A stretch of 64,000 nucleotides of DNA from Phytoactinopolyspora mesophila (GTDB lineage: Bacteria; Actinomycetota; Actinomycetes; Jiangellales; Jiangellaceae). The stretch is from NCBI RefSeq assembly GCF_010122465.1, contig NZ_WLZY01000001.1, positions 620,001 through 684,000 on the forward strand. Direction: 5' to 3'. A program made the translations under genes and the position numbers. Of this stretch, positions 23,652-49,159 are shown in pieces; position 1 is the stretch's first letter; the number at the start of each line of letters is the position of its first letter. The notes under the pieces are model-generated. The model was not told the origin of the DNA. It saw only the letters and a program-made list of their open reading frames with translations, and searched no databases.

Positions 23652-24938
23652 GTGAATCAACCGATGTTCCGTGCCCCGAAGGGCACGTTCGATCTTGTCC
23701 CGCCTCGGGCCGAGGCGATCCTGGCCGTTCGTGAAGCGATGTCCGACGCTGTGCGCAGAGCCGGATTCGGCTACGTCGAGACTCCGTCGTTCGAAGACAC
23801 ACAACTGTTCGTCCGCGGTGTCGGAGAGTCCACCGACGTCGTGACCAAGGAGATGTACTCGTTTACGACCCGGGGCGGCGACGACGTCACCCTGCGGCCG
23901 GAGGGTACGGCGCCGGTCCTCCGCGCCGCCCTGGAAGGCAACCTGCACCGCGGCTCGCTGCCGGTGAAGCTGTGGTACTCCGGGTCGTACTACCGCTACG
24001 AGCGGCCGCAGAAAGGCCGCTACCGGCACTTCTCGCAGGTCGGTGCCGAGGTTCTGGGCACGGAGGACCCGGCCAATGACGCGGAACTGATTGTCTTGGC
24101 GATGGACGGGTACCGGTCCCTCGGGTTGACCGGGGTGCGCGTCGTCATCAACTCGCTGGGTTCGGAGGAGTCCCGCCCCGCCTACCGGAGCGCCTTGCAG
24201 GAGTTCCTGCGGGGACTGGACCTGGATGACGAGACGGCGAAACGAGCCGAGCTGAACCCCCTGCGGGTGCTCGACGACAAACGTCCGGAGATCCAGGCCG
24301 CCCTCACTGACGCGCCGCTGATGTCCGACTTTCTGTCCAAGAGCGATCTCGACCACCACGACACGGTGCGGACGTTGCTGGCCGATGCCGGTGTGGCGTT
24401 CGAGGACGACGCACGCCTGGTCCGTGGACTGGACTACTATTCACGAACCCTCTTCGAGTTCGTGCACGACGGCTTGGGCGCTGCGCAGTCGGCGATTGGT
24501 GGGGGTGGGCGCTACGACGGCCTCTCCGAGCTGATCGGCGGCCCCCGGCTGCCCAGCGTCGGTTGGGCCCTAGGGGTGGAGCGCACGCTGCTCGCGATGG
24601 AGGCCGAAGGCCTCCCGCTGCCGGGGGAGACCGGGTTGGACGTCTACGCCGTACCGCTCGGAGAAGAAGCGGCCCGGCAGCTGTTCGGCGTCGTCACCGA
24701 GCTGCGCAGAGCTGGCATCCGCGCCGATCTGGCCACGGGCGGGCGTGGCCTGAAGGGTGCGATGAAAGCCGCCGACCGCAGCGGCGCGCGGCTGGCGATT
24801 GTCGCCGGAGAGCGTGATCTCTCGGCAGGCGTCGCCCAACTCAAGGATCTGCAGACGGGTGATCAGCGACCCGTGCCGCTGGCGGAACTGCAAAACACCA
24901 TTCGGACCGAGCTCGGTGGCTCTGTCCAGGCGAACTGA
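23652..24938 (+). CDS. hisS: Histidyl-tRNA synthetase
   Basis: A 428-residue class II synthetase charging tRNA-His. The motif 2 region reads [19 protein letters not shown], the histidine-binding loop is [13 protein letters not shown] near residue 258, and motif 3 is GGGRYDGL near 280, followed by the anticodon-binding domain. The GTG 23652 start lies 12 bases after the metallo-hydrolase stop. It ends at a palindromic repeat before the convergent symporter gene. Confidence 0.95.
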
Positions 24939-24960
24939 ACTGACACAACCCCACCTGTTC

Positions 24961-25049
24961 GGTGATCGTCAGTGTGTTGTGGTCGTGATTTGGTGATCGT
25001 CAGTGTGTTGTGGTCGTGATCCAGAAACCACAACACACTGACGATCACC
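24961..25049. repeat. Palindromic repeat, copy 2, with duplicated left arm
   Basis: The arm starting GGTGATCGTCAGTGTGTTGT occurs twice in tandem (24961-24989 and 24992-25020). Its reverse complement follows at 25026-25049, so either left copy can pair with the right arm. The arm differs from copy 1 at 11371-11427 by a base or so. It sits exactly between the convergent hisS and symporter genes, a good place for a bidirectional terminator. Confidence 0.82.
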
Positions 25050-25067
25050 GGGAGAGTCAAAGCCGCA

Positions 25068-26516
25068 CTACTCCGGCTTGACCGTGTACATCTTCCACTC
25101 GGGGCGGCTGAAGAAGTCGAAGCTGCCCTTGCGGACGGTGAAGGCCAGCAGAATCAGGCCGACCAGGTTGGGAAGCGCCATCAGCCCGTTGAGGATGTCG
25201 GCGATGTCCCAGATCAGGTCCAGGCTCGCGACCGCGCCGACAAATATGAAACCGCAGAAGACGAGCCGGTAGGGGAGCACGGCGGCCCGGCCGAAGAGCC
25301 GGTCCATGCACCGCTCGCCGTAGTAGGCCCAGCCGAGCAGCGTCGAGAAGGCAAAGAACGCCACGCCCAGCGTCACCAGCGTGCCGCCCCAGTCGCCTGG
25401 CAAACCCTCACGGAACGCCTCGGCTGTCAGCACAGCGTCGCGGAGCTGGTCACCGGCGGCGTCGACCTCGGTGTACATGCCGGTGGTGACGATGACGAGA
25501 CCGGTGAAGCTGACGACCACGAGCGTGTCGAGGAAGGTCTGGGTCATGGAGACCAGCGACTGACGGACCTCGTGGGTTGTCTTGGCCGCCGCGGCCGCGA
25601 TGCCGCCGGTGCCGAGGCCGGACTCGTTGGAGAAGATGCCGCGCGCGACGCCTTGCCGGAGCACCAGGAGGATACCGGCGCCGACGAACCCGCCTGCAGC
25701 AGCTTCACCGGTGAAAGCGCCCTCGAAGATGGTGGCGATCGCATCCGGCAGATCGCCGACGTTCAGGACCAGAATGACGGTCGCTCCGAGTACATAGAAG
25801 ATCGCCATGAACGGTACGAACGCCGCCGTGAACTTGCCGATCGCCTTGATTCCGCCCAGAATGACGACGGCCGCGACGAACATCAGCACCAGGCCGGTCG
25901 CCCACGTCGGGATGTTCCACTCGTTGTTGAGCGCGGAAGCGACCTGGCCGGACTGCACGCCGTTGCCGATACCGAACGCGGCCACGGCACCGAATACCGC
26001 GAACAGGATGGCCAGCACCTTGCCGAACGTCGCCATCCGGCCTTCGCCGTACTTCTCCCGGAGACCCTCGCTGATGTAGAACATCGGGCCACCGCTTTGC
26101 TCACCCGCGGCATCAACCCGCCGGTACTTCACCCCCAGAAAGGCTTCGGCGTACTTGGTCGCCATGCCGAGCAAGCCGGTGACCCACATCCAGAAGAGGG
26201 CTCCGGCTCCGCCGATGGCGATCGCACTGCCGACACCGGCGATGTTGCCGACGCCGACCGTCGCCGCCAGTGCCACGGTGAGAGCTTGATAGTGGCTGAT
26301 ATCGCCTTTGACGTCCCCGGTCTCCTTGCGTTTGATCAACGCCAGCCAGAGCGCGTGGAACAGTTTCGTGAACTGCACACCGCGTAACAGGATCGTCAGA
26401 AACAGACCGGTGCCGAGCAGTAGCGGCACCAGCAGGCCGAACTCGACAATCGGGATGTTCAAGCCACCCCAGACAAAGCTGCCGATATCGCCGATGATGT
26501 CTTCGAAGGTATCCAC
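25068..26516 (-). CDS. Alanine/glycine:cation symporter (AGCS family)
   Basis: A 482-residue sodium-coupled amino-acid symporter with about ten to eleven membrane segments. AGCS hallmarks include ILLRGVQFTKLFHALW, the glycine-rich GVGNIAGVGSAIAIGG and ESGLGTGGIAAAAAKT. It probably imports alanine or glycine. GTG 26516 is preferred because AAGGAGG lies 6 bases upstream; residues further upstream in the frame are low-complexity Arg/Ala/Pro and not family-like. The 413-base gap before it has hairpins but no riboswitch I recognise. Confidence 0.88.
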   Translation of the reverse strand: MDTFEDIIGDIGSFVWGGLNIPIVEFGLLVPLLLGTGLFLTILLRGVQFTKLFHALWLALIKRKETGDVKGDISHYQALTVALAATVGVGNIAGVGSAIAIGGAGALFWMWVTGLLGMATKYAEAFLGVKYRRVDAAGEQSGGPMFYISEGLREKYGEGRMATFGKVLAILFAVFGAVAAFGIGNGVQSGQVASALNNEWNIPTWATGLVLMFVAAVVILGGIKAIGKFTAAFVPFMAIFYVLGATVILVLNVGDLPDAIATIFEGAFTGEAAAGGFVGAGILLVLRQGVARGIFSNESGLGTGGIAAAAAKTTHEVRQSLVSMTQTFLDTLVVVSFTGLVIVTTGMYTEVDAAGDQLRDAVLTAEAFREGLPGDWGGTLVTLGVAFFAFSTLLGWAYYGERCMDRLFGRAAVLPYRLVFCGFIFVGAVASLDLIWDIADILNGLMALPNLVGLILLAFTVRKGSFDFFSRPEWKMYTVKPE

Positions 26517-26642
26517 GCGTCGCCTCCTTGTTGCCGCCTCGCAGGCGGTCCTGGCCAGTAGGAACGCCAGGGCGTCGCACCTTGTGCTCGCGCTCCGCCG
26601 ACAAGTGTCGGGTGATGCCGGGGAACAGGGTGGGGCGCGTGC

Positions 26643-26756
26643 GTCCCGGTTCGGAATGACCGGGACACTAGCTGCTGGCGGCCTGGCCGACAAGATGCCG
26701 CGCCGAGATCGTTACCTCAGCCGCCGGCGCACCTGCCCTGACCCATCGGGGCAGGT
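26643..26756. other. Intergenic hairpins between symporter and aspS
   Basis: Two perfect 8-base hairpins lie here: GTCCCGGT/ACCGGGAC (26643-26650 and 26659-26666) and ACCTGCCC/GGGCAGGT (26731-26738 and 26749-26756). They fall within the divergent 413-base gap, which has no supported gene. Either may belong to the leader of the symporter mRNA. I compared by eye with glycine, c-di-GMP and guanidine riboswitches and found no match. Confidence 0.35.
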
Positions 26757-26929
26757 ATAGGCAGAGAATCTCCGCATGCACCGGCACTTGAGCGCACGAG
26801 GCGGCAAACCGGGTCGCGCACGACGGCGCGGCCTACGTAGGATCGCAGGCGGCGGATACATTAGAGGCGCGAGTTCTAAGCCGTGCTCCCCGCTACAGCC
26901 CGCCCCTTCGCGACCGAAAGAGGATCTCA

Positions 26930-28687
26930 GTGCTCCGCACCCATGAGGCCGGTACGCTGCGTGCCGACCATGCCGCACAGACTGTCACGCTGACCGGGTG
27001 GGTCGCCCGGCGGCGCGATCATGGGGGAGTAGCGTTCCTCGATCTGCGGGACGCCTCCGGCGTCGCGCAGGTGGTGGTTCGTGACGAAGACGTCGCACAC
27101 GACCTGCGCGCGGAGTACTGCATCCGGGTCACCGGCGAGGTCTCCAAGCGACCTGCCGGAAACGAGAACCCGGCACTGCCCACCGGGGCAATCGAAGTGG
27201 TGGCTGAGACCGTAGAGGTGCTCAGCGAGGCCGACCCACTGCCGTTCCAGATCGACGACTACGTCGATGTCGGCGAAGAGGTGCGGCTGAAGCACCGCTA
27301 TCTTGACCTGCGACGCAGCGGCCCGGCCGCCGCCATCCGGCTGCGTAGCGAAGTGAACCGGGTCGCCCGCGAGGTCCTGCACGCGGAGAACTTCGTCGAG
27401 ATCGAGACTCCGACGATGACCCGATCCACCCCGGAAGGCGCCCGCGACTTCGTGGTGCCGGCCAGGCTGCGCCCCGGTTCCTGGTACGCCCTGCCCCAGT
27501 CTCCTCAGCTGTTCAAACAGCTGCTCATGGTCGCCGGCATGGAGCGGTATTTCCAGATCGCCCGTTGTTATCGCGACGAAGACTTCCGCGCGGATCGCCA
27601 GCCGGAGTTCACCCAGCTCGACGTCGAGATGAGCTTCGTCGAGCAAGAAGACGTCATCGCGCTCAGCGAGCGGATCGTCAGCTCGCTCTGGGAGCTCATC
27701 GACGTTCAGGTGCCCACACCCATCCCGCGGATCACCTACCGCGAGTCGCTGGACCGCTACGGCACCGACAAGCCCGACCTGCGCTTCGAGCAAGAACTCA
27801 CCGAAGTGACCAGCCACTTCGCCAACACCACGTTCCGGGTCTTCCAAGCACCATATGTGGGCGCCGTGGTCTTCCCGGGCGGTGCCTCCCAGACCCGCAA
27901 GGAACTCGACGGCTGGCAAGACTGGGCCAAGGCTCGGGGCGCCAAGGGGCTGGCCTATGTGCTCGTCGGTGCGGACGGAGAACTGTCGGGGCCGGTCGCC
28001 AAGAACCTCTCCGACGACGAGAAGGCCGGTCTCCCGGCGCTCACCGGAGCGGCCCCAGGTGACGCGATCTTCTTCGCGGCCGGACCGCGCAAGGCCTCAC
28101 AATCGCTGCTCGGGGCCGCGCGACTCGAGATCGGCAAGCGTGCCAAGCTGATCGACGAAGACGGCTGGGCGTTCGTCTGGGTGGTTGACGCACCCCTGTT
28201 CGAAGCCGTCGCCGAGACAGACGACGTCGCCGTCGGCGGCGGAGCCTGGACCGCTGTGCACCACGCGTTCACCTCACCTAAACCGGAATGGATCGACTCT
28301 TTCGAAGAGGATCCCGGCAACGCGCTCGCCTACGCCTACGACATCGTCTGCAACGGCAACGAGATCGGCGGCGGGTCGATCCGTATCCACCGTCGTGATG
28401 TCCAGCAGCGAGTCTTCGACGTCATGGGGCTCACCGCTGAGGAGGCACAGGAGAAGTTCGGATTCCTCCTGGACGCCTTCAAGTACGGCGCCCCGCCGCA
28501 CGGAGGTATCGCCTTCGGGTGGGACAGGGTCGTGGCACTACTCGCAGGCTCTGACTCGATCCGCGACGTGATCGCGTTCCCGAAGACCGGCGGTGGATAT
28601 GACCCGCTCACCAGTGCGCCCGCACCGATCACGGCAGAGCAGCGCAAAGAAGCCGGAATCGACGTGGTTCCTGACAGCGAGGAATAG
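26930..28687 (+). CDS. aspS: Aspartyl-tRNA synthetase
   Basis: A 585-residue bacterial-type class II AspRS. It has the N-terminal OB anticodon domain ([20 protein letters not shown]), class II motif 2 ([20 protein letters not shown]), the inserted GAD-type domain (about residues 290-400) and motif 3 ([13 protein letters not shown]). Bacterial enzymes of this type may charge tRNA-Asp alone or also tRNA-Asn; the window does not decide. The GTG 26930 start has AGAGGA upstream. Hairpin element C begins immediately after the stop. Confidence 0.95.
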
Positions 28688-28688
28688 G

Positions 28689-28790
28689 GAAGGGCTTGGG
28701 CCCGAGATCCGTTCCCGCCCGCGGACTCGCTCGTACCTCGCTCGCCGATGCCCGACCGAACCCTGAACGGATCTCGGGCCCAAGCCCTTC
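28689..28790. repeat. Long hairpin element C with conserved loop core
   Basis: Perfect 25-base inverted arms (28689-28713 and 28766-28790) surround a 52-base loop holding CCCGCGGACTCGCTCG and CCTCGCTCGCCGATGCCCGA. The loop matches elements A and B but is shorter by about 20 bases in the middle. The left arm starts at the aspS stop codon. The stem sequence is specific to this locus. Confidence 0.85.
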
Positions 28791-29120
28791 ATGCCCGCTG
28801 CGGTTCCCGTCTGGACAAGCACAAAAGAGTCCGTCGCCCGATGCCCGACCGAACCCTGGCCGCCAACCAGGTACCCCCACCCCTGTGGTTCTCGTCTGCG
28901 GTTCCCGTCTGGTCGAGCAAGAGGGTTCCGTTCCCGCCCGCGGACTCGCTCGTACCTCGCTCGCCGATGCCCGACCGAACCATGAACGGATCTCGGGCCC
29001 AAGCCCTTCATGCCCGCTGCGGTTCCCGTCTGGACAAGCACAAAAGAGTCCGTCGCCCGCGGACTCGCTCGTACCTCGCTCGCCGATGCCGGACCGAACC
29101 CGGGACGGATCTCAACTCCA
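28708..29120 (+). repeat. 133-bp direct repeat and third loop core after aspS
   Basis: Bases 28708-28840 recur at 28927-29059 with one mismatch (CCCTGAAC versus CCATGAAC). A third copy of the loop core follows directly at 29059-29104, with a shortened right side. The second copy keeps the right stem arm (28985-29009) but has lost the left arm. The 530-base gap from 28688 to 29217 contains no supported gene; its apparent open frames are repeat shadows. Confidence 0.8.
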
Positions 29121-29216
29121 ACCACCGGCTCCTTCGCTGCGGTTCCCGTCTGGTGAAGCACACAGGGCTGCGCGCGGACGGTTTGTCGTTGAGCGAACCC
29201 TTTGAATGTAACGCAG

Positions 29217-29234
29217 AGTGACAATATCGTCACT
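29217..29234. promoter_or_regulatory. Operator upstream of the LuxR-type gene
   Basis: AGTGACAATATCGTCACT has half-sites AGTGA and TCACT separated by 8 bases. The same arrangement occurs at 29931-29948 upstream of the rhiA-like gene. Shared half-sites and spacing suggest one regulator binds both, most simply the LuxR-type protein encoded between them. Confidence 0.6.
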
Positions 29235-29241
29235 TTGCGTG

Positions 29242-29919
29242 ATGGTGGGTGAATCCGGACGTTCTCGTCCGATTTGGATGGTGTCCCAGAATGCGGTGCT
29301 TTCGGCCGCACTCGCGGCGGCATTGACCGTCATCGGGTGGCGCGCCGTGCGGGTAGTGACGGAGCTGCATCTGATGGTGGCGGGCGTGCGCGCACCTGTC
29401 GACACGCTCATTCTGGTTGCGGATCCCGAGGGCCGGCTGCCGGACGTGCGCTCAGTGCTGGGACCACGGGCCGACGCGCGCGTCGTCGCCGTCGCGACGA
29501 AGGCGGCGCTGGCCTCACTGGCCGACGCCGTGGAGCGCGCCGGAGTAGTGGCTGTCGCTGACGCTGACCAGCCCATGACCGAACTCGCACACACGCTCGA
29601 CCAGACCCTCAGGCTCCCCGATTTCGCGCCGGACCGCGCGCGGCTGACGGCGGCACTTCGCGCGCGCGAGGACGAGGCGCGTCGATTCACCGCCCTGACC
29701 CCACGTGAGCTCGATGTGCTCGGCGCCCTGCTCGCCGGGCGATCCGCGGCCGAGATCGCCACCGCGGACGTAGTCACGCTGGCGACGGTGCGTAGTCATA
29801 TCCGGGCGCTTATGAGCAAGCTCAGGGTGTCCTCGCAACTCGCGGCTGTCGCCTTGACTCACCGCTCATGCCGCGAAGCACCGATTGTGGAGCGAATCCG
29901 GCAGGTTCATCAATTTTGA
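29242..29919 (+). CDS. LuxR-type helix-turn-helix regulator with receiver-like N-terminus
   Basis: A 225-residue protein. The C-terminal LuxR/GerE helix-turn-helix reads LTPRELDVLGALLAGRSAAE and TLATVRSHIRALMSKL, residues about 155-205. The N-terminal 120 residues follow a receiver-like alternation starting RPIWMVSQNAVLSAAL, but the acidic pocket of a phosphorylated receiver is not clear, so it may be an atypical or ligand-sensing domain. ATG 29242 is preferred over GTG 29218, because GTG 29218 falls inside the operator; ATG 29278 is another option. It probably regulates itself and the rhiA-like operon. Confidence 0.8.
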   Translation: MVGESGRSRPIWMVSQNAVLSAALAAALTVIGWRAVRVVTELHLMVAGVRAPVDTLILVADPEGRLPDVRSVLGPRADARVVAVATKAALASLADAVERAGVVAVADADQPMTELAHTLDQTLRLPDFAPDRARLTAALRAREDEARRFTALTPRELDVLGALLAGRSAAEIATADVVTLATVRSHIRALMSKLRVSSQLAAVALTHRSCREAPIVERIRQVHQF

Positions 29920-29930
29920 CGATGACACAC

Positions 29931-29974
29931 AGTGACATTCTGCTCACTCTGAGTAACAGGTAGTGAAGGTCACT
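29931..29974. promoter_or_regulatory. Operator region upstream of the rhiA-like gene
   Basis: AGTGACATTCTGCTCACT (29931-29948) repeats the AGTGA-N8-TCACT layout found before the LuxR-type gene. A second, tighter palindrome AGTGAAGGTCACT lies at 29962-29974. Both precede the rhiA-like start at 30015. No sigma-70-like promoter is clear, so the regulator may be an activator. Confidence 0.6.
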
Positions 29975-30014
29975 GCTCAGCCGCATCAGCGGCATCTCCA
30001 ATGACGGGGGAGAC

Positions 30015-30689
30015 ATGCCCAACACCTACACCCTCACGGTGATCAACAACTCGGAGCTCGACCGCCCGACGTTCGCCGTGTTCGCCACCCTTCCGGCCAC
30101 CACGGCCTACGACACGGTCAGCCTCGCATGGCTGACCCAGCCGATCAACGCGCACAATCAGTACGTCTTCAAGTGGAACATCACCTGGGGATTCGCGTGG
30201 TCGGCCCAGGGCACCGAATCCGGTTACCAGTGGGCCGGCAGCGGCCAACTGGCAGCCGACCCGAACGCAACGGACCGGTGCAAAGCGCTGTTCTCGTACA
30301 ACCAGGATTTCGAGCTCACGCCGGCCAACGGGAATCCCGACGGCCAAACGCTGTGGATCAGCGACGATCCGACTGTGCCGGTACCAAGCGTCCAGGCCAG
30401 CTCCGTGGCGATCACGCTGGATGGAGATTCGGTGTGCGCCACGAACGCCGGCCCCAACCTCACGCAGACGTTCACCCTGCACCCGACGTATTACATCGAC
30501 GCGGGCAACTACGTGAAGGGGCAGATGGTCGACGGGTCCAGCGTCACGAGCTTCCAAACGCTGGAGTACTCCGGCGGCAACACCGCCCTGACCGCGACCT
30601 TGAACCCGGACAACACCTGGGACGTGGGTAGCAGCAAGGAGCTCGACTTCCGGCGGATGTTCCAGGCACGAGAAGCGAGAAGCCGCTAG
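30015..30689 (+). CDS. RhiA-like protein
   Basis: A 224-residue protein resembling RhiA of Rhizobium leguminosarum, an abundant rhizosphere-expressed protein of unknown biochemical role that is controlled by the LuxR-type regulator RhiR. Similar segments are the N-terminal TLTVINNSELDRPTFAVFA, SLAWLTQPINAHNQYVFKW, WGFAWSAQG, and the tail TFTLHPTYYIDAGNYVKGQ and ALTATLNPDNTWDV. I recognised the family by eye. No signal peptide or membrane segment is seen; two Cys are present. The ATG 30015 start has GGGGGAG 5 bases upstream. A LuxR-type gene upstream and a Cys-rich small gene downstream complete the locus. Confidence 0.75.
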   Translation: MPNTYTLTVINNSELDRPTFAVFATLPATTAYDTVSLAWLTQPINAHNQYVFKWNITWGFAWSAQGTESGYQWAGSGQLAADPNATDRCKALFSYNQDFELTPANGNPDGQTLWISDDPTVPVPSVQASSVAITLDGDSVCATNAGPNLTQTFTLHPTYYIDAGNYVKGQMVDGSSVTSFQTLEYSGGNTALTATLNPDNTWDVGSSKELDFRRMFQAREARSR

Positions 30690-30740
30690 CTGGTGGCGGC
30701 CTTCACCATCCGGATTCGGCAAGAAGTCAGGGAGTTTGCC

Positions 30741-30938
30741 ATGACACAGGAACCAGAAGAGATGAGCGCGGGGGACTGCCCGCCGCTGCCGGACGACTAT
30801 GACCCGCAGGTCGCCGGGGAGTGCTGGTCGGGCCGTAACTGTACGGGCAAGAAGCTGAACAACAAGGACGCCCACAACTGCAAGAACAGCGGCGGTAAGA
30901 GCTGGAGGAGCCCGGACGGGACGTGCCACAACCTGTAG
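30741..30938 (+). CDS. Small cysteine-rich protein of unknown function
   Basis: A 65-residue protein starting at ATG 30741 with GGGAG 6 bases upstream. The first 25 residues are acidic (MTQEPEEMSAGDCPPLPDDY). The rest is basic and Gly/Asn-rich with four Cys (GECWSGRNCTGKKLNN, AHNCKNSGG, DGTCHNL), for five Cys in all. There is no signal peptide. The acidic leader and Cys/Ser/Thr-rich tail would suit a modified peptide or a metal-binding or disulfide-bonded factor, but no modification enzyme is adjacent. It lies 51 bases after the rhiA-like gene and is followed by a terminator. Confidence 0.7.
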   Translation: MTQEPEEMSAGDCPPLPDDYDPQVAGECWSGRNCTGKKLNNKDAHNCKNSGGKSWRSPDGTCHNL

Positions 30939-30997
30939 CCCTTCGAGGCGCGAGCGGGGCCGGGTGACACACGGAACCGGACCACGTCTCGATCGAC

Positions 30998-31031
30998 AAG
31001 AATGCGACTCGTCACGGCGAGTCGCATTCTT
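30998..31031 (+). terminator. Strong hairpin after the rhiA-like operon
   Basis: Perfect 14-base arms AAGAATGCGACTCG and CGAGTCGCATTCTT enclose a 6-base loop (31012-31017). The right arm ends in TTCTT. The flanking A/T in the arms makes it suitable as a bidirectional terminator for the rhiA-like operon and the convergent VOC gene. Confidence 0.8.
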
Positions 31032-31075
31032 GTGTGCCTGAGCCGACTCAGCGTCCTGCCTGGAATGAACCCCGC

Positions 31076-31501
31076 CTACTGGATGCAGAACTCGTTGCCC
31101 TCAGGATCGGCCATGACGTAGTGGTACTCGCGGTAGGGACCCCACAGGGCATCGTGCTTGCGAATCACGCTCGCACCCAAAGCGACAATCCGGTCTACCT
31201 CGGCGTCGATCTCTGCCGGAGTGGCGTGTTTGCCAGGGATCGCGAAAAGATCGAGGTGAACACGGTTCTTGGCTTGCTTCGGCTCTGCCACGCGGTGGAA
31301 GTACAGACGCGGGCCCGCACCCTCGGGGTCTTCGGCCACCGACCGGTCGAGGAGGTCTTCTTCGGTCAGGCCGCTCTGGAGAAGACTTTCGCGTAACTCA
31401 GGCGGATACTCGCTACGCGGATAGCCGAGCACATCGGACCAGAAGTGTGACAGGGCTCTAGGATCAGCGCAGTCGAAGGTGATGTTGCCGACCTTGTTCA
31501 T
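31076..31501 (-). CDS. VOC (glyoxalase/bleomycin-resistance fold) family protein
   Basis: A 141-residue vicinal-oxygen-chelate protein. It begins VGNITFDCADPRALSHFW, contains the paired beta-strand region KNRVHLDLFAIPGK with a likely metal-ligand His, and ends YVMADPEGNEFCI, the typical last strand with a metal-binding Glu. Such proteins can be dioxygenases, isomerases or drug-binding proteins; the role here is unknown. It reads away from the ABC-F gene, so a resistance link is only positional. Confidence 0.8.
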   Translation of the reverse strand: MNKVGNITFDCADPRALSHFWSDVLGYPRSEYPPELRESLLQSGLTEEDLLDRSVAEDPEGAGPRLYFHRVAEPKQAKNRVHLDLFAIPGKHATPAEIDAEVDRIVALGASVIRKHDALWGPYREYHYVMADPEGNEFCIQ

Positions 31502-31609
31502 TCTCAGCCTCCTCGAGAGACGTGACGACGATCACGAGTCACGTTATTACCTCGCCCCGACACCCTCTGATATCTTCGATCGCGTTATGCGGATCTGACA
31601 CCTGAAGCG

Positions 31610-31643
31610 GCCCACGTCCGAGGTCATCTGAGACCCGGTGGGC
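31610..31643 (+). promoter_or_regulatory. Candidate attenuator stem in the ABC-F leader
   Basis: Outer arms GCCCAC (31610-31615) and GTGGGC (31638-31643) enclose an inner GGTC/GACC stem. It lies 28 bases before the ABC-F start. Ribosome-protection ATPase genes are often controlled by leader attenuation, so this stem may take part, but no convincing leader peptide or promoter could be fixed. Confidence 0.35.
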
Positions 31644-31671
31644 TTCCTCCGACCCCATTCGAGGTCCTCAG

Positions 31672-33336
31672 GTGTCTCAACTCTCGGTACGTTCTCTTTC
31701 CAAGTCCTATGCGGGACGAATTGTTCTCGACGACATCCGCCTCGACGCGGGACCAGGCGAGCGCCTGGGGCTGGTCGGCGAGAACGGTGTCGGCAAGTCC
31801 ACACTGCTGCGGCTGATAGCCGGCGTGGAGCATCCCGACGCCGGCGAGGTCCACCTCAGCGGGAGCCTCGGCTACCTCAGCCAGGAGCCCGACCTTCCGG
31901 TGGGAGGCACCATTGCCGAGGCTGTAGACGCCGCTCTGGCAGAGTTCCGCAGCCTCGAGGCCGCGATGCGCAAGCTCGAAGAGCGCATGAGCGCCGGCGA
32001 CACCGACGTGCTGACCGAGTACGGCGATCTCATGGCCGAATACGAACGACGCGACGGTTGGTCGGCCGACGCCCGGGCGGCGCGGGCGCTGGCGGGCCTG
32101 GGACTGGCGGAGATTCCGCCTACGTGGGCACTCGAGCAGCTTTCCGGTGGCCAGCGTGCCCGCCTGGCGCTAGCACTCGCGCTGGTCCGGGCACCGGACA
32201 TCCTGGTGCTGGACGAGCCGACCAACCATCTCGACGACGACGCACTGGCTTATCTCGAGACGACGCTTCGCGAGCATCACGGTGTCGTCGTCGCCGCGTC
32301 ACATGACCGCGCCTTCCTCGACGCTGTCTGCACGTCGATCCTCGATCTGGATCCGACGCTGCGAGTCGAGCCGGACGGAACGCCGATCATCGGCCCTGCC
32401 CGCTACACCGGCGCATACACCGACTACCTGGAGGGCAAAGCCGCCGCCCGCGTCCGGTGGGAACAAGCGCATGCCGCGTGGAACGACGAGATGAACCTCG
32501 CCCGGGCCGCGACCCGAACCACCGCGCGGCAGGTGGGGCATACCAATCGCGCACGACGCGACAATGACAAGTTCCAGCCCCATTTCTTCGGACAGAAGGT
32601 CGACGCGGCGGTGGCCCGCCGGGTCCGCGATGCCGAGAACAGGGTGAAACAGCTCGAGAAACGGAAGGTCCTGAAGCCACCCCGGTTGCTCCGGCTTGAT
32701 ACGACGCTGGACCAACCAGCTCGCGGCGGTGTGCTCATCTCGGCGCGGGAGATCGACGTACCCGGACGTATCTCCTTCGCCGCACTCGATGTCAGCGGCG
32801 ACACCCGCCTCCTGGTAACGGGGCCGAACGGCGCAGGGAAGTCGTCACTGCTCGCCGTGCTCGCGGGTGCCCTGGAGCCGGTTGGCGGTGCCGTGATGCA
32901 TTCCCGTGGCCTCCGGATCGGCTGGCTGCCGCAAGCGGGCGCGTTTCCGGACCCGGGGATATCCGCTCTCGCCGTGTACGCAGCCGGGCGATCCGGCCCG
33001 CCCGACGAATACCGCAGCGATTTGTCCGCCCTGGGCCTGCTGCCCGCTTGGCAGTTCGACACGCCGGTGGGGCGGCTGTCGGTAGGGCAGCAGCGCCGGC
33101 TAGCACTGGCCAGACTGCTGACCGCCCGGCCACAGGTCCTGCTGCTCGACGAACCAACCAACCACCTGTCGCTCGGCCTCGTCGAAGAGCTAGAGGAAGC
33201 GGTCGGCGTGTCGCGGCTCCCGGTGGTGCTGGTGACACATGACCGATGGGCTCGCCGGCGCTGGGCTGGCGACGTGCTGCACCTGGATTCCGGTGTGAGG
33301 ACGCCGAGTACGTCCAAAGCCCGGCGTGGCGAGTAA
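31672..33336 (+). CDS. ABC-F ribosomal protection ATPase
   Basis: A 554-residue soluble protein with two ATPase domains and no membrane segments, the ABC-F layout. Domain 1: Walker A GENGVGKST near residue 36, signature LSGGQRARLALA near 157, Walker B VLDEPTNHL. A long charged interdomain linker spans about residues 250-330. Domain 2: Walker A GPNGAGKSS near 384, signature LSVGQQRRLALA near 467, Walker B LLDEPTNHL. The family displaces ribosome-bound antibiotics; the adjacent erm gene suggests macrolide, lincosamide or streptogramin protection. A translation-factor role cannot be excluded. The start is GTG 31672 without a strong ribosome-binding site. Confidence 0.88.
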   Translation: MSQLSVRSLSKSYAGRIVLDDIRLDAGPGERLGLVGENGVGKSTLLRLIAGVEHPDAGEVHLSGSLGYLSQEPDLPVGGTIAEAVDAALAEFRSLEAAMRKLEERMSAGDTDVLTEYGDLMAEYERRDGWSADARAARALAGLGLAEIPPTWALEQLSGGQRARLALALALVRAPDILVLDEPTNHLDDDALAYLETTLREHHGVVVAASHDRAFLDAVCTSILDLDPTLRVEPDGTPIIGPARYTGAYTDYLEGKAAARVRWEQAHAAWNDEMNLARAATRTTARQVGHTNRARRDNDKFQPHFFGQKVDAAVARRVRDAENRVKQLEKRKVLKPPRLLRLDTTLDQPARGGVLISAREIDVPGRISFAALDVSGDTRLLVTGPNGAGKSSLLAVLAGALEPVGGAVMHSRGLRIGWLPQAGAFPDPGISALAVYAAGRSGPPDEYRSDLSALGLLPAWQFDTPVGRLSVGQQRRLALARLLTARPQVLLLDEPTNHLSLGLVEELEEAVGVSRLPVVLVTHDRWARRRWAGDVLHLDSGVRTPSTSKARRGE

Positions 33337-33374
33337 AAAACGCGTTGAACCACTCATCCCGCGACCACTAGCAT
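33335..33374 (+). promoter_or_regulatory. WhiB7-like promoter of the erm leader
   Basis: A -35 element TTGAAC (33345-33350) and -10 element TAGCAT (33369-33374) are separated by 18 bases. A run of six A (33335-33340) lies 4 bases upstream of the -35, as in promoters activated by WhiB7 with the primary sigma factor. Transcription from this promoter would start at about 33381-33382, at the first codon of the leader peptide. Confidence 0.6.
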
Positions 33375-33381
33375 GCTCTGC

Positions 33382-33447
33382 GTGGCCAATGGTAACTACA
33401 TGCTCGGCATCGCCTCGATGAGGCTGCGCCGCTTCACCACGGCATAA
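33382..33447 (+). CDS. Erm leader peptide with Met-Arg-Leu-Arg arrest motif
   Basis: A 21-codon open frame starts with GTG and ends TAA. It contains IASMRLRRFTTA at its C-terminal end. The MRLR segment matches the macrolide-dependent arrest motif of the ErmD-type leader, where an Arg-x-Arg element stalls the drug-bound ribosome. It has no clear ribosome-binding site; with transcription starting at or near its GTG it could be translated as a leaderless mRNA. It lies 164 bases upstream of erm and probably controls it by attenuation. Confidence 0.7.
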   Translation: MANGNYMLGIASMRLRRFTTA

Positions 33448-33531
33448 CTCGCGCAGCTGGCTGAGCCAGCCCGGGTGTGCCGTGAACCGCGCCCGTCCCC
33501 GGTGTTGTGAACCCGGGTCGACGGCGCGGTT
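33423..33531 (+). promoter_or_regulatory. Overlapping attenuator hairpins upstream of erm
   Basis: Stem 1 pairs GCTGCGC (33423-33429), which covers the Arg-Leu-Arg codons of the leader, with GCGCAGC (33451-33457). A mutually exclusive hairpin GCTGGC/GCCAGC spans 33456-33470. A longer stem pairs AACCGCGCC (33485-33493) with GGCGCGGTT (33523-33531). A ribosome stalled at the MRLR codons would break stem 1 and change the downstream folding, fitting inducible attenuation. Confidence 0.6.
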
Positions 33532-33611
33532 AGTCATGTCCAGATGACGGCGCCGAGCACGTCCCGCATGACGCGCGGACCGCTCCTCACATCCAATGGC
33601 TGTGGTGAACC

Positions 33612-34268
33612 ATGCCCTCGCGGCGCACAAGTGCACGTACATTCCCGGACAACCCGTCTGGGATTCATCTATTGAAGGACCCAGCTGTGGTCCGGCGGAT
33701 GATCAGGTCGGCTCAACTCGACCCACAGGACCTCGTGGTCGAGTTCGGCGCCGGTACCGGAAAGCTGACCTCCCAGCTATCGGGGACAGGCGCCCGGATC
33801 ATCGCCGTCGAGCGCCATCCAGATCTCGTCGCCCGCCTCGAACGTCGGTTCTCAGAAGCCGAGAATGTGCGTATCGTTGCCGGCGACGCACGGAGCGTCC
33901 CACTGCCGCGCCGCCCTTATGCGGTCGTGGCGAACATCCCATACTCCATTTCGACGAGTTTGTTCCGGCGAATTCTGACCCCTGACCAAACCGCACTGCA
34001 AGAAGCGGACATTCTGGTCGAATGGGGCTTCGCGAAACGTGTCACGGCCGAACAGCCCCGAAACTTCGAGATCGCATGGTGGCAACTCCGGTTCGAACTG
34101 TCGATCGTCGGTCGGGTACGCCCGCACAGTTTCGCGCCGCCGCCGTCAGTGGACACCGCCCATCTGCGAATACGCCGCCGCAGTGGAGTGAGTGCCGGAC
34201 TTCTCCAGCAGCAGGAACGCCGGCTGCGGCAGCTTTACCGGCCGTCCCGGCGGCTTCGACGGAGGTGA
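33612..34268 (+). CDS. 23S rRNA (adenine-N6)-methyltransferase, Erm family, short form
   Basis: Erm enzymes methylate A2058 of 23S rRNA and give macrolide-lincosamide-streptogramin B resistance. The 218-residue protein has the SAM site EFGAGTGKLT near residue 43, the acidic loop IVAGDARSVPLP, and the catalytic VVANIPYSISTSLFRRIL near residue 105. The C-terminal helical domain is shortened compared with usual Erm proteins of about 250-270 residues; short forms are known in mycobacteria. KsgA is unlikely because the motif is NIPYSIS and the context is resistance. ATG 33612 is preceded by only a weak ribosome-binding site. Confidence 0.85.
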   Translation: MPSRRTSARTFPDNPSGIHLLKDPAVVRRMIRSAQLDPQDLVVEFGAGTGKLTSQLSGTGARIIAVERHPDLVARLERRFSEAENVRIVAGDARSVPLPRRPYAVVANIPYSISTSLFRRILTPDQTALQEADILVEWGFAKRVTAEQPRNFEIAWWQLRFELSIVGRVRPHSFAPPPSVDTAHLRIRRRSGVSAGLLQQQERRLRQLYRPSRRLRRR

Positions 34269-34354
34269 TCCGCCCACCCGGCCCCACAGAAGCGCGGGCT
34301 GCCACCCAGGGCAGCGGCGGAGATCGTGACGGCAAAGACAGGATCCGGGGGACA

Positions 34355-34402
34355 ATGAAGATGATCTTACTCACACTTCTTGTGATTGGTCTTTGGCTTT
34401 GA
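34355..34402 (+). CDS. Possible 15-residue hydrophobic peptide
   Basis: The open frame MKMILLTLLVIGLWL starts with ATG 8 bases after CCGGGGG. It is wholly hydrophobic and uses AT-rich codons, including a TTA, unlike its neighbours. It could be a small membrane peptide, a leader for rarA, or chance. A consensus-like TTGACA lies downstream at 34423-34428. The rest of the 316-base gap between erm and rarA shows no gene. Confidence 0.3.
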   Translation: MKMILLTLLVIGLWL

Positions 34403-34584
34403 CATCGGCCGGGACCAGATCCTTGACAAGTCCGTGATCTATATGTCAATCTCGGAAATGAAGCAAGGCCCCCCAAGTAGCTGTGGCGCGGTATCCTCAT
34501 CGGATGCCGCGCCACGGTTCGTTTGGGCAGCATGAGGCGCACTTGCCTGCGCGGATGTCCTCGCCAGCACGTAGGCTCGGCTGT

Positions 34585-35946
34585 ATGGAGCAAGAGGGAC
34601 TCTTCGGGCAGGCGCCGGCATCCTCCAGGCCCGGAGGCTCGCTGGCGGGCGCGGATCAGGAGTATGCGGGCCAGCCTCTGGCCGTACGGATGCGCCCTCG
34701 GACGCTCGACGACGTCATCGGCCAAGATCATCTACTTGGCCCGGGCACCCCATTGCGCCGCCTCGTCGAGGACGACCAAGCGATGGCGCTTGTGCTCTGG
34801 GGCCCGCCGGGAACCGGTAAAACCACCCTCGCGTACGTGGTGAGCCGCGCCACTCAGCGTCATTTCGTCGAGCTCTCGGCCGTGACGGCCGGGGTGAAAG
34901 ACGTGCGCGAGGTGATGGAACGGGCTCGTCGTGAGCTGGTGAAGACGGGGACGGGCACAGTGCTGTTCGTGGACGAGGTCCACCGGTTCTCCAAGACGCA
35001 GCAGGACGCCCTGCTGCCAGGGGTAGAGAACCGGTGGGTGTCGCTCGTCGCCGCCACGACCGAGAACCCATTCTTCGCCCTCATCAGTCCTTTGCTCTCG
35101 CGATCGCTGTTGCTCACCCTGGAGCCGCTGAAGCAGGAGAACATCGAGGAGGTCTTCGACCGCGCGCTGAGCGACGAACGCGGTCTCGGCGGCGAGGTGA
35201 AGATCGACGATGACGCGCGCGAGCACCTCGTCCGGCTGGCCGGCGGTGACGCACGCCGAGCGCTGACGTACCTCGAGGCGGCGGCCGGCGCCGCCGCGGC
35301 CACCACTGAGGCGACCATCACCCTCGGCATCGCGGAGAAGGCGGTCGACCGCGCGGCGGTGCGCTACGACCGCGACGGCGACCAGCACTACGACGTCACC
35401 AGCGCACTCATCAAATCGATCAGGGGCAGTGACGTAGACGCTGGTTTGCACTATCTGGCGCGGATGGCTGAGGCAGGTGAAGACCCGCGGTTCCTCGCCC
35501 GCCGGCTGGTAATCCTGGCCAGCGAAGACATCGGACTGGCCGACCCCTCAGCGCTGCAGACCGCGGTGGCAGCGGCGCAGGCGGTTCAGCTGATCGGCTG
35601 GCCGGAAGCCCAGATCACTCTGGCGCATGCGGTGATCGCCCTGGCGCTGGCGCCCAAATCGAACAGCGTGGTCAAGGCGATAGGCGCGGCTTCAGGTGAC
35701 ATCCGCGCGGGTCTGGCTGGCCCGGTGCCGCCAGCACTGCGCGACTCACACTACTCGGGTTCCAAGAAGCTGGGCCATGGCAGCTCCTACGCCTACGCGC
35801 ACGACGACCCCCGCGGCGTCGTCGAGCAGCAGTACGCGCCGGACTCGGTCGCGGACAAGCAATACTACGAGCCCACCACACGCGGCGCCGAACGAGACTA
35901 CGCGGAGCGCTACGCCCGCCTACGCAAGATCATCCGAGGCCGGTAG
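34585..35946 (+). CDS. rarA: Replication-associated recombination protein A (RarA/MgsA AAA ATPase)
   Basis: A 453-residue AAA+ ATPase related to the clamp loader and RuvB, acting at stalled replication forks. The N-terminus is family-like ([20 protein letters not shown]). Walker [10 protein letters not shown] lies near residue 75, Walker B is LFVDEVHRF, sensor 1 is AATTENPFF, and the C-terminal tetramerisation region includes [20 protein letters not shown] and [22 protein letters not shown] 34585 gives the family start (MEQEGLFGQ). Its usual downstream block (DUF948, DUF6167, alaS) follows after two antisense genes. Confidence 0.93.
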
Positions 35947-36026
35947 ACGTCGTCAACGTGCCCTGGCCGCATCGCCCAGCCAGGCCGCGTTGGCGTTGTC
36001 CTGGAGTTGACCGATAGCGGCACTGT

Positions 36027-47227: not shown

Positions 47228-47740
47228 ATGCTCTACCGGGTCCTTTTGATCACACTCGGCTCGATTGTCGTGCTAGGCGCGGGGCTGTACGGCTGGTCAC
47301 GTGTGTCGCCCACCGAGATTCACACGGAGATCGAGATTGACGCACCTGTCGAGGACGTGTGGCACGTCCTGACCGGCTTCAGCGAATACGAGGAATGGAA
47401 TCCCTTCATGGTGAAAGCCTCAGGGGAGGCCCAGGTCGGTGAGACGCTGGTCAATACCCTGGTGACTGACGGCTCAACCATGACGATCAAACCGCAGGTC
47501 ACCGTCGCCGACCCCGGTCAAGAGCTTCGCTGGCTGGGCCGTTTCGTGCTGCCCGGCGTGGTTGAGGGTGAACACTACTTTCTGCTGGAGCCGACCAGCG
47601 ACAACGGCACTCGTCTGGTCCACGGTGAGACCTTTACCGGGATGCTAGTACCCTTCGCAGGCGGAATGCTTGACGTCGGGAACGAGTTCGAGTTGATGAA
47701 TCAAGCACTGAAAGCCCGGGCTGAGGGACTCACGCATTGA
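47228..47740 (+). CDS. SRPBCC family protein with N-terminal membrane anchor
   Basis: A 170-residue protein with one N-terminal membrane segment (about residues 4-24, LLITLGSIVVLGAGLYGW) and an SRPBCC/START-like ligand-binding domain: IDAPVEDVWHVLTGFSEYEE followed by WNPFM. The fold binds hydrophobic ligands or acts as a cyclase; the ligand is unknown. It starts just after the TetR-type operator and overlaps the downstream TetR gene by 4 bases, so the regulator and this protein are coexpressed. Confidence 0.82.
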   Translation: MLYRVLLITLGSIVVLGAGLYGWSRVSPTEIHTEIEIDAPVEDVWHVLTGFSEYEEWNPFMVKASGEAQVGETLVNTLVTDGSTMTIKPQVTVADPGQELRWLGRFVLPGVVEGEHYFLLEPTSDNGTRLVHGETFTGMLVPFAGGMLDVGNEFELMNQALKARAEGLTH

Positions 47741-48348
47741 AGCCCGCTCGGCCGCCGCTGACACCGTTGACACCGCGAGCGGCGCAGATCGTTGACGTCG
47801 GGCGGCTGATTCTCGAAGAGCAGGGTCCCGGCTCGTTGACCATGCGCACAATCGCCCAGCGCCTCGGCATCCGGGCGCCGTCGCTGTACAAACACTTGCC
47901 GGACAAACAGGCACTCGAAGCAGCACTCATCGAACGCGGCCTGGCTGAGATGGGGGACACGCTGTACGACGCGCTGGAAACCGCCGAGGAGGACGGCACC
48001 GACCGAGGGGCAATCCGGCGAATCTCGGCGTTGCTCGCGGCATACCGCGATCATGCGAGAGCTCACCCGAACATGTACCGGCTCGGCACGGCCGGGCGGT
48101 TGCCGCGTGAACGGCTTGCGCCCGGCCTGGAAGAGTGGGCTGGCACGCCCTTCTTCCTCGCCGTGGGCGACCCATATCGCGCCCAGGCCCTGTGGTCGTT
48201 CGCGCACGGACTGGTGATCCTCGAACTCGACGCGCGGCTGCCGGCCGATTCGGACGTATCTCGTACCTGGGCCGAAGGGGCGGCGGCGTTCGCGGTCAGC
48301 TCGGTTAGCTCGCCACCGCGCGCAGAGCACCGGGACGGCGCCCGGTGA
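47737..48348 (+). CDS. TetR/AcrR family transcriptional regulator
   Basis: A 203-residue TetR-type repressor. The N-terminal helix-turn-helix reads ILEEQGPGSLTMRTIAQRLG followed by IRAPSLYKHLPDKQALEAAL, residues about 25-65. The C-terminal ligand domain resembles the WHG-type TetR C-terminus (WSFAHGLVILELDARLP). It starts with TTG overlapping the SRPBCC stop (TTGA). The likely binding site is the double palindrome at 47157-47197. Its end overlaps the convergent XRE gene by 44 bases. Confidence 0.85.
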   Translation: MKPARPPLTPLTPRAAQIVDVGRLILEEQGPGSLTMRTIAQRLGIRAPSLYKHLPDKQALEAALIERGLAEMGDTLYDALETAEEDGTDRGAIRRISALLAAYRDHARAHPNMYRLGTAGRLPRERLAPGLEEWAGTPFFLAVGDPYRAQALWSFAHGLVILELDARLPADSDVSRTWAEGAAAFAVSSVSSPPRAEHRDGAR

Positions 48349-49159
48349 GCTCGTCGATGGACGCCGCGGTGGCGTCGTCGGCGGGCAGATAGACGACGAG
48401 TCGCTGGCTGTCGGGATCGGGCAACGCCAGTGTCTCGTAGGCGAGCCGGAGTTCCCCGGCGTCGGGGTGGACGAGGCGATCCACCCCGCTGCGTTCGGGT
48501 AATGCCGGAGGCGCCGTCATCCGATCGGTGAACGGCGCGCCCGCGGTGACACTCAGCTCGTCGGTGAGCTCGCTGGCGTGTGGGTCGTCGCCGGACTGTT
48601 CTGCCCGGAGATTGGCCACCAGCTGGTCAGCCACGTCGTCCCAGTCCGGATAGACGTCGTGGGCGCGGGCGTCGGTGAAGACGTAGCGCAGCAGGTTGGG
48701 TGACTCGCCGTCCAGGAAGTCCGGGGGAGCCACACAGCGTCGATACCCGGCTGTCCACGCCAGAACATCGTTGAGCCGGTTGAGCAGCACTGCTGGCGTG
48801 GGTTCGAGCAGATCAAGCAACGCCCGCACGGTGGGGCGCACCACCTGCGCGGGCGGCTGACTACCCGCACAGAGTCCGTCGCCACTGGCGGATTTCGCGA
48901 GAACCAGCAGGTGAAAGCGCTCCTCGCTGGGCAGCCTCAGGGCGTCGGCGAGCGCGCCGAGCACCTGGCTGGACGGATGCCGGTCACGGCCCTGTTCGAT
49001 GCGGGTCAAGTACTCGACGCTCACTCCGGCCAAAGTGGCGAGCTCGGAACGGCGCAGGCCCGGTGTACGCCGCCGCGGCCCGGTGGGCAGGCCCACATCG
49101 GACGGCAACACGCCTTCGCGCCGAGTGCGCAGGAAGAGTCCGAGTTCGTTGTCGCTCAC
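48305..49159 (-). CDS. Helix-turn-helix XRE regulator with MmyB-like ligand domain
   Basis: A 284-residue regulator. The N-terminal XRE domain reads GLRRSELATLAGVSVEYLTR and IEQGRDRHPSSQVLGALADAL, residues about 34-75. The C-terminal PAS-like MmyB domain begins TVRALLDLLEPTPAVLLNRL and includes WDDVADQLVANLRAE. Genes of this type often stand divergent to the SDR gene they repress, as here. GTG 49159 is chosen; the upstream in-frame sequence is not conserved-looking. Confidence 0.85.
   Translation of the reverse strand: MSDNELGLFLRTRREGVLPSDVGLPTGPRRRTPGLRRSELATLAGVSVEYLTRIEQGRDRHPSSQVLGALADALRLPSEERFHLLVLAKSASGDGLCAGSQPPAQVVRPTVRALLDLLEPTPAVLLNRLNDVLAWTAGYRRCVAPPDFLDGESPNLLRYVFTDARAHDVYPDWDDVADQLVANLRAEQSGDDPHASELTDELSVTAGAPFTDRMTAPPALPERSGVDRLVHPDAGELRLAYETLALPDPDSQRLVVYLPADDATAASIDELTGRRPGALRAVAS

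Follow-up and report, generated by a model that had tools for sequence, protein, structure and literature searches.

The window analysed here is a 64,000-nt stretch of the Phytoactinopolyspora mesophila genome (G000:C1:620001-684000, where G000 denotes the organism's own 6.5-Mb genome). Between aspS and a downstream glyoxalase/ABC-F block it carries three genes that encode a LuxR-type regulator (P0001), a protein of the RhiA family (P0002) and a small Cys-rich protein (P0003). Repeated sequence elements precede the first two genes, and a strong hairpin follows the third one (Table 1). The unit is real; its parts are ordinary, but their combination is unusual.

Table 1. Features of the three-gene unit and its flanks (positions within the window)
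Feature	Position	Strand	Remarks
Nested repeats (direct and inverted) separating aspS from the unit	28689..29162	+	lacking in the P. alkaliphila locus
Array before the LuxR-type gene	29208..29253	+	GTAAC, GTGAC, GTCAC, GTGAT, GTGAA at 29208, 29218, 29229, 29239, 29249
LuxR-type regulator P0001, 213 aa	29278..29919	+	start codon uncertain; alternative GTG 29218
Array before the RhiA-like gene	29922..29967	+	ATGAC, GTGAC, CTCAC, GTAAC, GTGAA at 29922, 29932, 29943, 29953, 29963
Compact palindrome AGTGAAGGTCACT	29962..29974	+	overlaps the last array element; the P. alkaliphila copy differs once, at the centre
RhiA-family protein P0002, 224 aa, predicted beta-sandwich	30015..30689	+	
Cys-rich protein P0003, 65 aa	30741..30938	+	begins 51 nt after the RhiA-like gene; AGGGAG before ATG (by eye)
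Perfect long hairpin	30997..31032 (about)	+	probable terminator of the rhiA-Cys transcript; stem largely kept in P. alkaliphila

The three genes were found intact and in the same order in one other genome, that of Phytoactinopolyspora alkaliphila CGMCC 4.7225 (G004; record NZ_JAAGOB010000012.1, unit locus L008, also L030). After aspS, the unit was not seen in the six other family genomes inspected (G001, G002, G003, G005, G010 and G011). The co-occurrence of the three genes, expected from the original prediction, is thus seen with the order kept, but in that one further species only. The dN/dS values between the two species are 0.20 for the LuxR-type gene, 0.23 for rhiA and 0.14 for the Cys gene (0.07-0.19 for three neighbours), and hence all three genes look maintained by purifying selection. 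The repeats that separate aspS from the unit comprise a 133-nt element present twice at 99%, a 60-nt element present three times, a 28-nt element present four times and perfect 26-nt inverted arms; two of the repeat units were searched in the window and had no copies elsewhere in it. Downstream of the unit, at 31672-34268, lie genes for an ABC-type, ABC-F-like ATPase with two ABC domains and for an rRNA adenine dimethylase (Pfam), which look like an antibiotic self-protection pair; similar genes are also found downstream in P. alkaliphila.

Two 18-base sites of the layout AGTGA-N8-TCACT had been predicted before the LuxR-type and rhiA-like genes. They are indeed present without mismatches at 29217-29234 and 29931-29948 and form the sole exact pair in the window, while 100 first-order Markov simulations gave on average 0.03 and at most 1 exact site per simulated window. 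Throughout the own genome, the exact pattern occurs at three places vs. two for the reversed control, so AGTGA-N8-TCACT by itself is not rare; two of these three places are the pair in the unit, 714 bp apart. Nor is the degenerate motif enriched, since the window contains 10 sites with up to 2 mismatches against 15.3 expected. The P. alkaliphila counterparts of the two sites deviate by 1 and 2 mismatches.

The 18-base site turned out to represent elements 2 and 3 of a longer array of five GTNAC-like elements, which follow one another in steps of 10-11-10-10 bp. Steps and register are identical for the two promoters of either species; the P. alkaliphila arrays lie at L008 5592-5637 (LuxR-type promoter) and L008 6305-6350 (RhiA-like promoter). 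Over 20 scored positions the four arrays show 2, 3, 2 and 2 mismatches vs. 5 for the next best place in the window. It is this array, not the exact palindrome, that is kept in P. alkaliphila; the shared operators that had been proposed are better viewed as this array.

The product of the first gene, named as LuxR-type in the original prediction, bears a GerE/LuxR-type HTH at residues 139-192 (Pfam PF00196, E 1.1e-10, 41.4 bits vs. the cut-off of 23.5). Its open reading frame probably starts near 29278, because a frame beginning at 29218 would run across a 1-nt gap in the alignment of the two species. No Pfam domain was found in the N-terminal 130 residues, and the autoinducer-binding domain PF03472 was not found in P0001 by Pfam searches with E up to 1. 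As to a receiver domain, there was no Pfam match, the profile comparison aligned the HTH only, and the structure model is poor (pLDDT 52.8). The best solved-structure matches are to VraR (residues 115-196), a UvrY model could be aligned with P0001 (58-198 with 67-204), and P0001 is overall as long as a NarL-type regulator, against which its HTH aligns with a shift of 11 residues. Unlike NarL/VraR-type response regulators, P0001 has a short N-terminus and, in our reading, no recognisable acidic pocket. From these features, it might tentatively be seen as a NarL-like orphan whose receiver is truncated and devoid of the acidic pocket. Among 22 genomes, P0001 was matched only in the two Phytoactinopolyspora species that bear the unit (E <= 1e-15). 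PADLOC matched P0001 to CARF regulators via the HTH alone and gave no match for P0002 or P0003; the idea of a toxin-antitoxin or defence unit was dropped.

The relationship of P0002 to RhiA, predicted from the sequence alone, proved to be real and to extend over the full length. A tblastn search with P0002 returned 46 plasmid records (40 from Rhizobium), many of them annotated as 'protein rhiA', with identities of 27-35%, a best E of 7e-20 and coverage of at least 80% of the query in 45 of the 46. Eleven RhiA-family sequences align collinearly (alignment A2), as do those in the larger alignment A7; the RhiA of R. leguminosarum (pRL10, WP_011654211.1) is collinear with P0002 throughout, with 33% identity in A2, is similar in size and, like P0002, has no signal peptide (by eye). 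Thus, whole-length homology places P0002 in the RhiA family as a new member of a known but functionally blank group. The reference list of PMC2275737 traces RhiA as a 'rhizosphere' protein back to the 1980s, and a 2026 survey found no Pfam domain in it (PMC13133039). No match to P0002 was obtained among Pfam, NCBIfam, PADLOC and PHROGs profiles, and nothing significant in the PDB by sequence or profile. In the literature searched we found no report of an actinobacterial RhiA and no paper naming Phytoactinopolyspora alkaliphila.

The single-sequence search detected P0002 in 2 of 99 related genomes and the profile search in 8 of 393 genomes of the class. A scan of genome contigs with P0002 alone yielded no relative, and the profile scan with alignment A3 yielded 74 named loci across many phyla; viral contigs gave none with either P0002 or A3. 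The genera with relatives include Actinomadura, Saccharothrix, Hafnia, Pectobacterium, Aeromonas and Okeania, and the closest relatives outside the genus belong to two Actinomadura (49-52% identical). A conserved partner gene of rhiA was sought across genomes and rejected, as the neighbours differ. In genus g40 (L026, L027 and L028), the rhiA-family gene adjoins a gene for a 243-aa protein, whose L026 copy matches peptidase inhibitor family I36; in Actinomadura the neighbour encodes a protein with a Nal1 C-terminal match, and in rhizobia it is an AraC-type or helix-turn-helix gene (by annotation or by eye).

The structure model of P0002 is confident (mean pLDDT 88.6, pTM 0.82) and all-beta save for two helices, a short one and, with less certainty, one at the C-terminus. 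A Foldseek search with the model against the PDB and BFVD gave no match at E <= 0.001. The best VIA-align hit was a PepT2 domain (Z 5.3), with transthyretin, CBM26, PUD-1, thaumatin and pilus chaperones near Z 3-4; such matches reflect only a common beta-sandwich arrangement, and fold novelty is not implied. The alignment used with the structure omitted 11 of the 74 loci (6 near-duplicates and 5 with stops inside the matched range). Across 64 RhiA-family sequences, seven columns are invariant (W39, F52, W54, G66, N148, F153 and Y159). Since the conserved columns are mostly aromatic residues, Gly and Asn with no obvious catalytic set, we read the role of RhiA as probably binding or structural rather than catalytic. 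GC3 reaches 0.88 in both the rhiA-like and the Cys gene (0.81 in aspS, 0.78 in the ABC-F gene), and dS between the two species is 0.47 for rhiA vs. 0.92-1.20 in aspS, the ABC-F gene and rarA. The high GC3 and low dS of rhiA would fit high expression. The R. leguminosarum RhiA is described as highly expressed, cytoplasmic and of unknown function (PMC2275737).

P0003, the predicted 65-residue protein, indeed contains five Cys (at 13, 28, 34, 47 and 62), and the strong terminator predicted behind it is matched by the hairpin, which gives -32.7 kcal/mol for the folded 61-nt stretch (z -4.5). The two species share 85% identity in P0003 and all five Cys. Among 31 genomes it was matched only in P. 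mesophila and P. alkaliphila, and among the loci L024-L108 full-length relatives of both P0001 and P0003 were found at the P. alkaliphila locus L030 only. Apart from the own gene, a sample of 296 genomes of the phylum returned only weak partial matches, in four other genomes (E 0.001-0.004), two of them with internal stops; the PDB, plasmids and phages gave no homologue.

We then considered how far the arrays extend beyond the unit. An IUPAC version of the five-element pattern, derived from the four arrays themselves, so that their 0 mismatches are by construction, was found without mismatches in the five congeners at the unit loci only. At up to 3 mismatches there were two sites each in P. 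mesophila and P. alkaliphila, one in G001, and one palindromic place in G003; G002 had no site, and the reversed control matched once in P. mesophila and nowhere in the other congeners. The G001 and G003 sites represent one shared locus, flanked by an aminotransferase-like gene on one side and the gene of an XRE-TPR regulator on the other; this locus is array-like in G002 and P. mesophila too and decayed in P. alkaliphila. Divergent from the XRE-TPR gene, all five congeners have a tiny ORF (L125-L129; G000:C10 near 47400-49000) with a signal-like N-terminus and a conserved W-P-x-M-C-C end, and the array lies just past it; the tiny ORF and the XRE-TPR gene resemble an RRNPP-type peptide signal/receptor pair.

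With no more than 1 mismatch, the shorter 10-11-10 pattern of four elements marked 15 places in 14 of the 22 family genomes, whereas its reversed control marked 0 in all 22. Seven of these 15 places are one orthologous site of genus g3, which we take to be Jiangella, upstream of a sensor kinase gene and beside a serpin gene (L148, L150 and L152-L156). The kinase has a HisKA_3 domain (Pfam, checked in L153 alone), and the g3 sites contain a GAAAC element resembling the GlnR b-site. Single weak array sites mean little, because, with as many as 2 mismatches allowed, array places in the own genome number 3 vs. 2 for the reversed control; for a constant 11-bp variant at the same threshold, 1 place in P. 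mesophila and 4 in P. alkaliphila compare with 1 and 1 for the controls. The other rhiA loci, amounting to 722,943 bases, showed no run of three exact GTNAC elements, and the nine actinobacterial rhiA genes inspected had no run of two or more upstream.

The element and the pitch of the arrays recall the boxes of two OmpR-type regulators. MtrA sites are described as direct repeats of the form GtnAcC-n5-GTnAcn with 5 or 6 nt in between (PMC13189361); GlnR sites are given as GTnAC-n6-GTnAC, which occurs in tandem at amtB and glnA, and number 36 in S. venezuelae (PMC3087709). The arrays consist of GTnAC direct repeats 5-6 nt apart, that is, at one helical turn, as in these boxes. They differ in having five elements and mixed 10/11 steps. 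Because the arrays match the MtrA/GlnR box class in both element and pitch, we favour an OmpR-type regulator shared across the family over the LuxR-type protein as their candidate binder.

Our main reading, which we put forward tentatively and rate as plausible though somewhat short of probable, is the following. The unit would be a lineage-specific insertion between aspS and the glyoxalase/ABC-F block in two Phytoactinopolyspora species, made up of two adjacent transcription units, namely the LuxR/NarL-type gene and the rhiA-family gene with the Cys-rich gene and the hairpin terminator. An OmpR-type regulator of the MtrA/GlnR kind, present throughout the family, would bind the arrays at both promoters, such that the regulator gene and the rhiA-Cys operon might switch jointly under a global signal, perhaps osmotic, envelope or nitrogen state. 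The LuxR-type protein would then be a co-regulated second tier, and the RhiA-family protein an abundant, presumably intracellular, non-enzymatic beta-sandwich with a putative binding or structural role.

Several observations do not sit easily with an MtrA/GlnR-type binder: the GlnR tandem sites are described with a constant n6 (PMC3087709), unlike the mixed 10/11 steps seen here, the strong arrays are few, whereas MtrA/GlnR regulons are usually large, and the two best arrays of the own genome flank the LuxR-type gene, as would be the case with a local autoregulator. Such local autoregulation, with P0001 as the binder of the arrays before its own gene and before the rhiA-like gene, and the other family arrays serving different GTNAC-preferring regulators, is a serious contender, albeit a rather doubtful one. 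The LuxR-type gene has an array immediately on either side, both genomes that have the unit contain this gene together with the arrays, and the perfect five-element matches in the congeners are confined to the unit loci, though for a pattern derived from those very four sites. Half-sites of NarL-type dimers are commonly about 10-11 bp apart, which also agrees with P0001 as the binder. On the other hand, arrays with up to 1 mismatch occur in five family genomes that were searched without finding P0001 (G001, G009, G011, G012 and G013; the check covered these five array-bearing genomes), and the XRE-TPR locus array is present in congeners without the unit. The view that P0001 owns the sites, as the original prediction had it, is weakened, since the arrays occur where P0001 was searched and not found. 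A wider possibility is that the phased array marks a family-wide regulon embracing a RhiA-family storage/binding protein, a LuxR-type sub-regulator, the sensor kinase and the XRE-TPR/secreted-peptide locus; we deem it unlikely.

Two further readings start from the gene products. Homology to RhiA might suggest a Rhi-like quorum-sensing unit in which an acyl-homoserine-lactone receptor drives the rhizosphere protein, as in Rhizobium leguminosarum, where RhiR is described to induce rhiI and the population-dependent induction of rhiABC (PMC4149787). Like P0001, RhiR has a GerE HTH and is encoded near a rhiA gene, and in 7 of the 74 rhiA-family loci, all from Rhizobium, a RhiR-like GerE ORF is found on the other strand, 1.5-1.9 kb downstream. 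However, RhiR has the autoinducer-binding domain PF03472 (E 5.4e-28), which was not found in P0001, and the gene order and strand differ: in R. leguminosarum the rhiR-like gene is on the opposite strand and rhiA is followed by rhiB (phage-collar domain) and rhiC, whereas here the regulator is upstream on the same strand and rhiA is followed by the Cys-rich gene and then the hairpin. Neither a PF03472 regulator nor rhiB and rhiC after rhiA, the two marks of the rhiABC-rhiR system, is found here; no luxI, rhiB or rhiC was recognised by eye among the ORFs of 24000-36000, and the rhiI/rhiABC layout described as RhiR-induced in PMC4149787 is not seen. We regard such a quorum-sensing unit as extremely improbable, and the proposed analogy with the rhizobial RhiR pairing is not supported.

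That P0003 is a secreted or modified peptide, with the RhiA-like protein as its carrier or immunity partner, seems very unlikely to us, even though its five Cys are kept in both species at 85% identity and its gene is under purifying selection (dN/dS 0.14). A distant rhiA-family locus in a Streptosporangiaceae MAG (L034 6505-9231) does have the rhiA-family gene near a gene with DUF4135 and LANC_like domains, that is, for a LanM-type lanthionine synthetase. Nevertheless, P0003 is hydrophilic (GRAVY -1.26), by eye no hydrophobic N-terminus was seen in P0002 or P0003 and no modification enzyme was recognised in 24000-36000, and no homologue of P0003 beyond the two species appeared in plasmids, phages or rhiA loci, apart from the weak partial matches in 4 of the 296 phylum genomes. 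The R. leguminosarum RhiA has itself served as a cytoplasmic marker and is reported as undetected in supernatants in PMC2275737. The secreted factor of the original prediction thus finds no backing, and no evidence was found for the host or plant association suggested with it; nothing supports secretion, quorum sensing or plant association of the unit.

Taken together, the data allow us to conclude that the RhiA family is far wider than legume symbiosis, because relatives are found in Actinomadura, Hafnia, Okeania and other genomes. The compact actinobacterial operon with its clear promoter architecture offers a simple and tractable non-symbiotic setting in which to test RhiA, and the phased array yields a concrete, checkable prediction of the type of regulator that controls the unit. 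If the family-wide regulon were true, RhiA would represent a general, non-symbiotic class of population- or stress-induced intracellular proteins, of which the rhizobial case would be one specialised instance.
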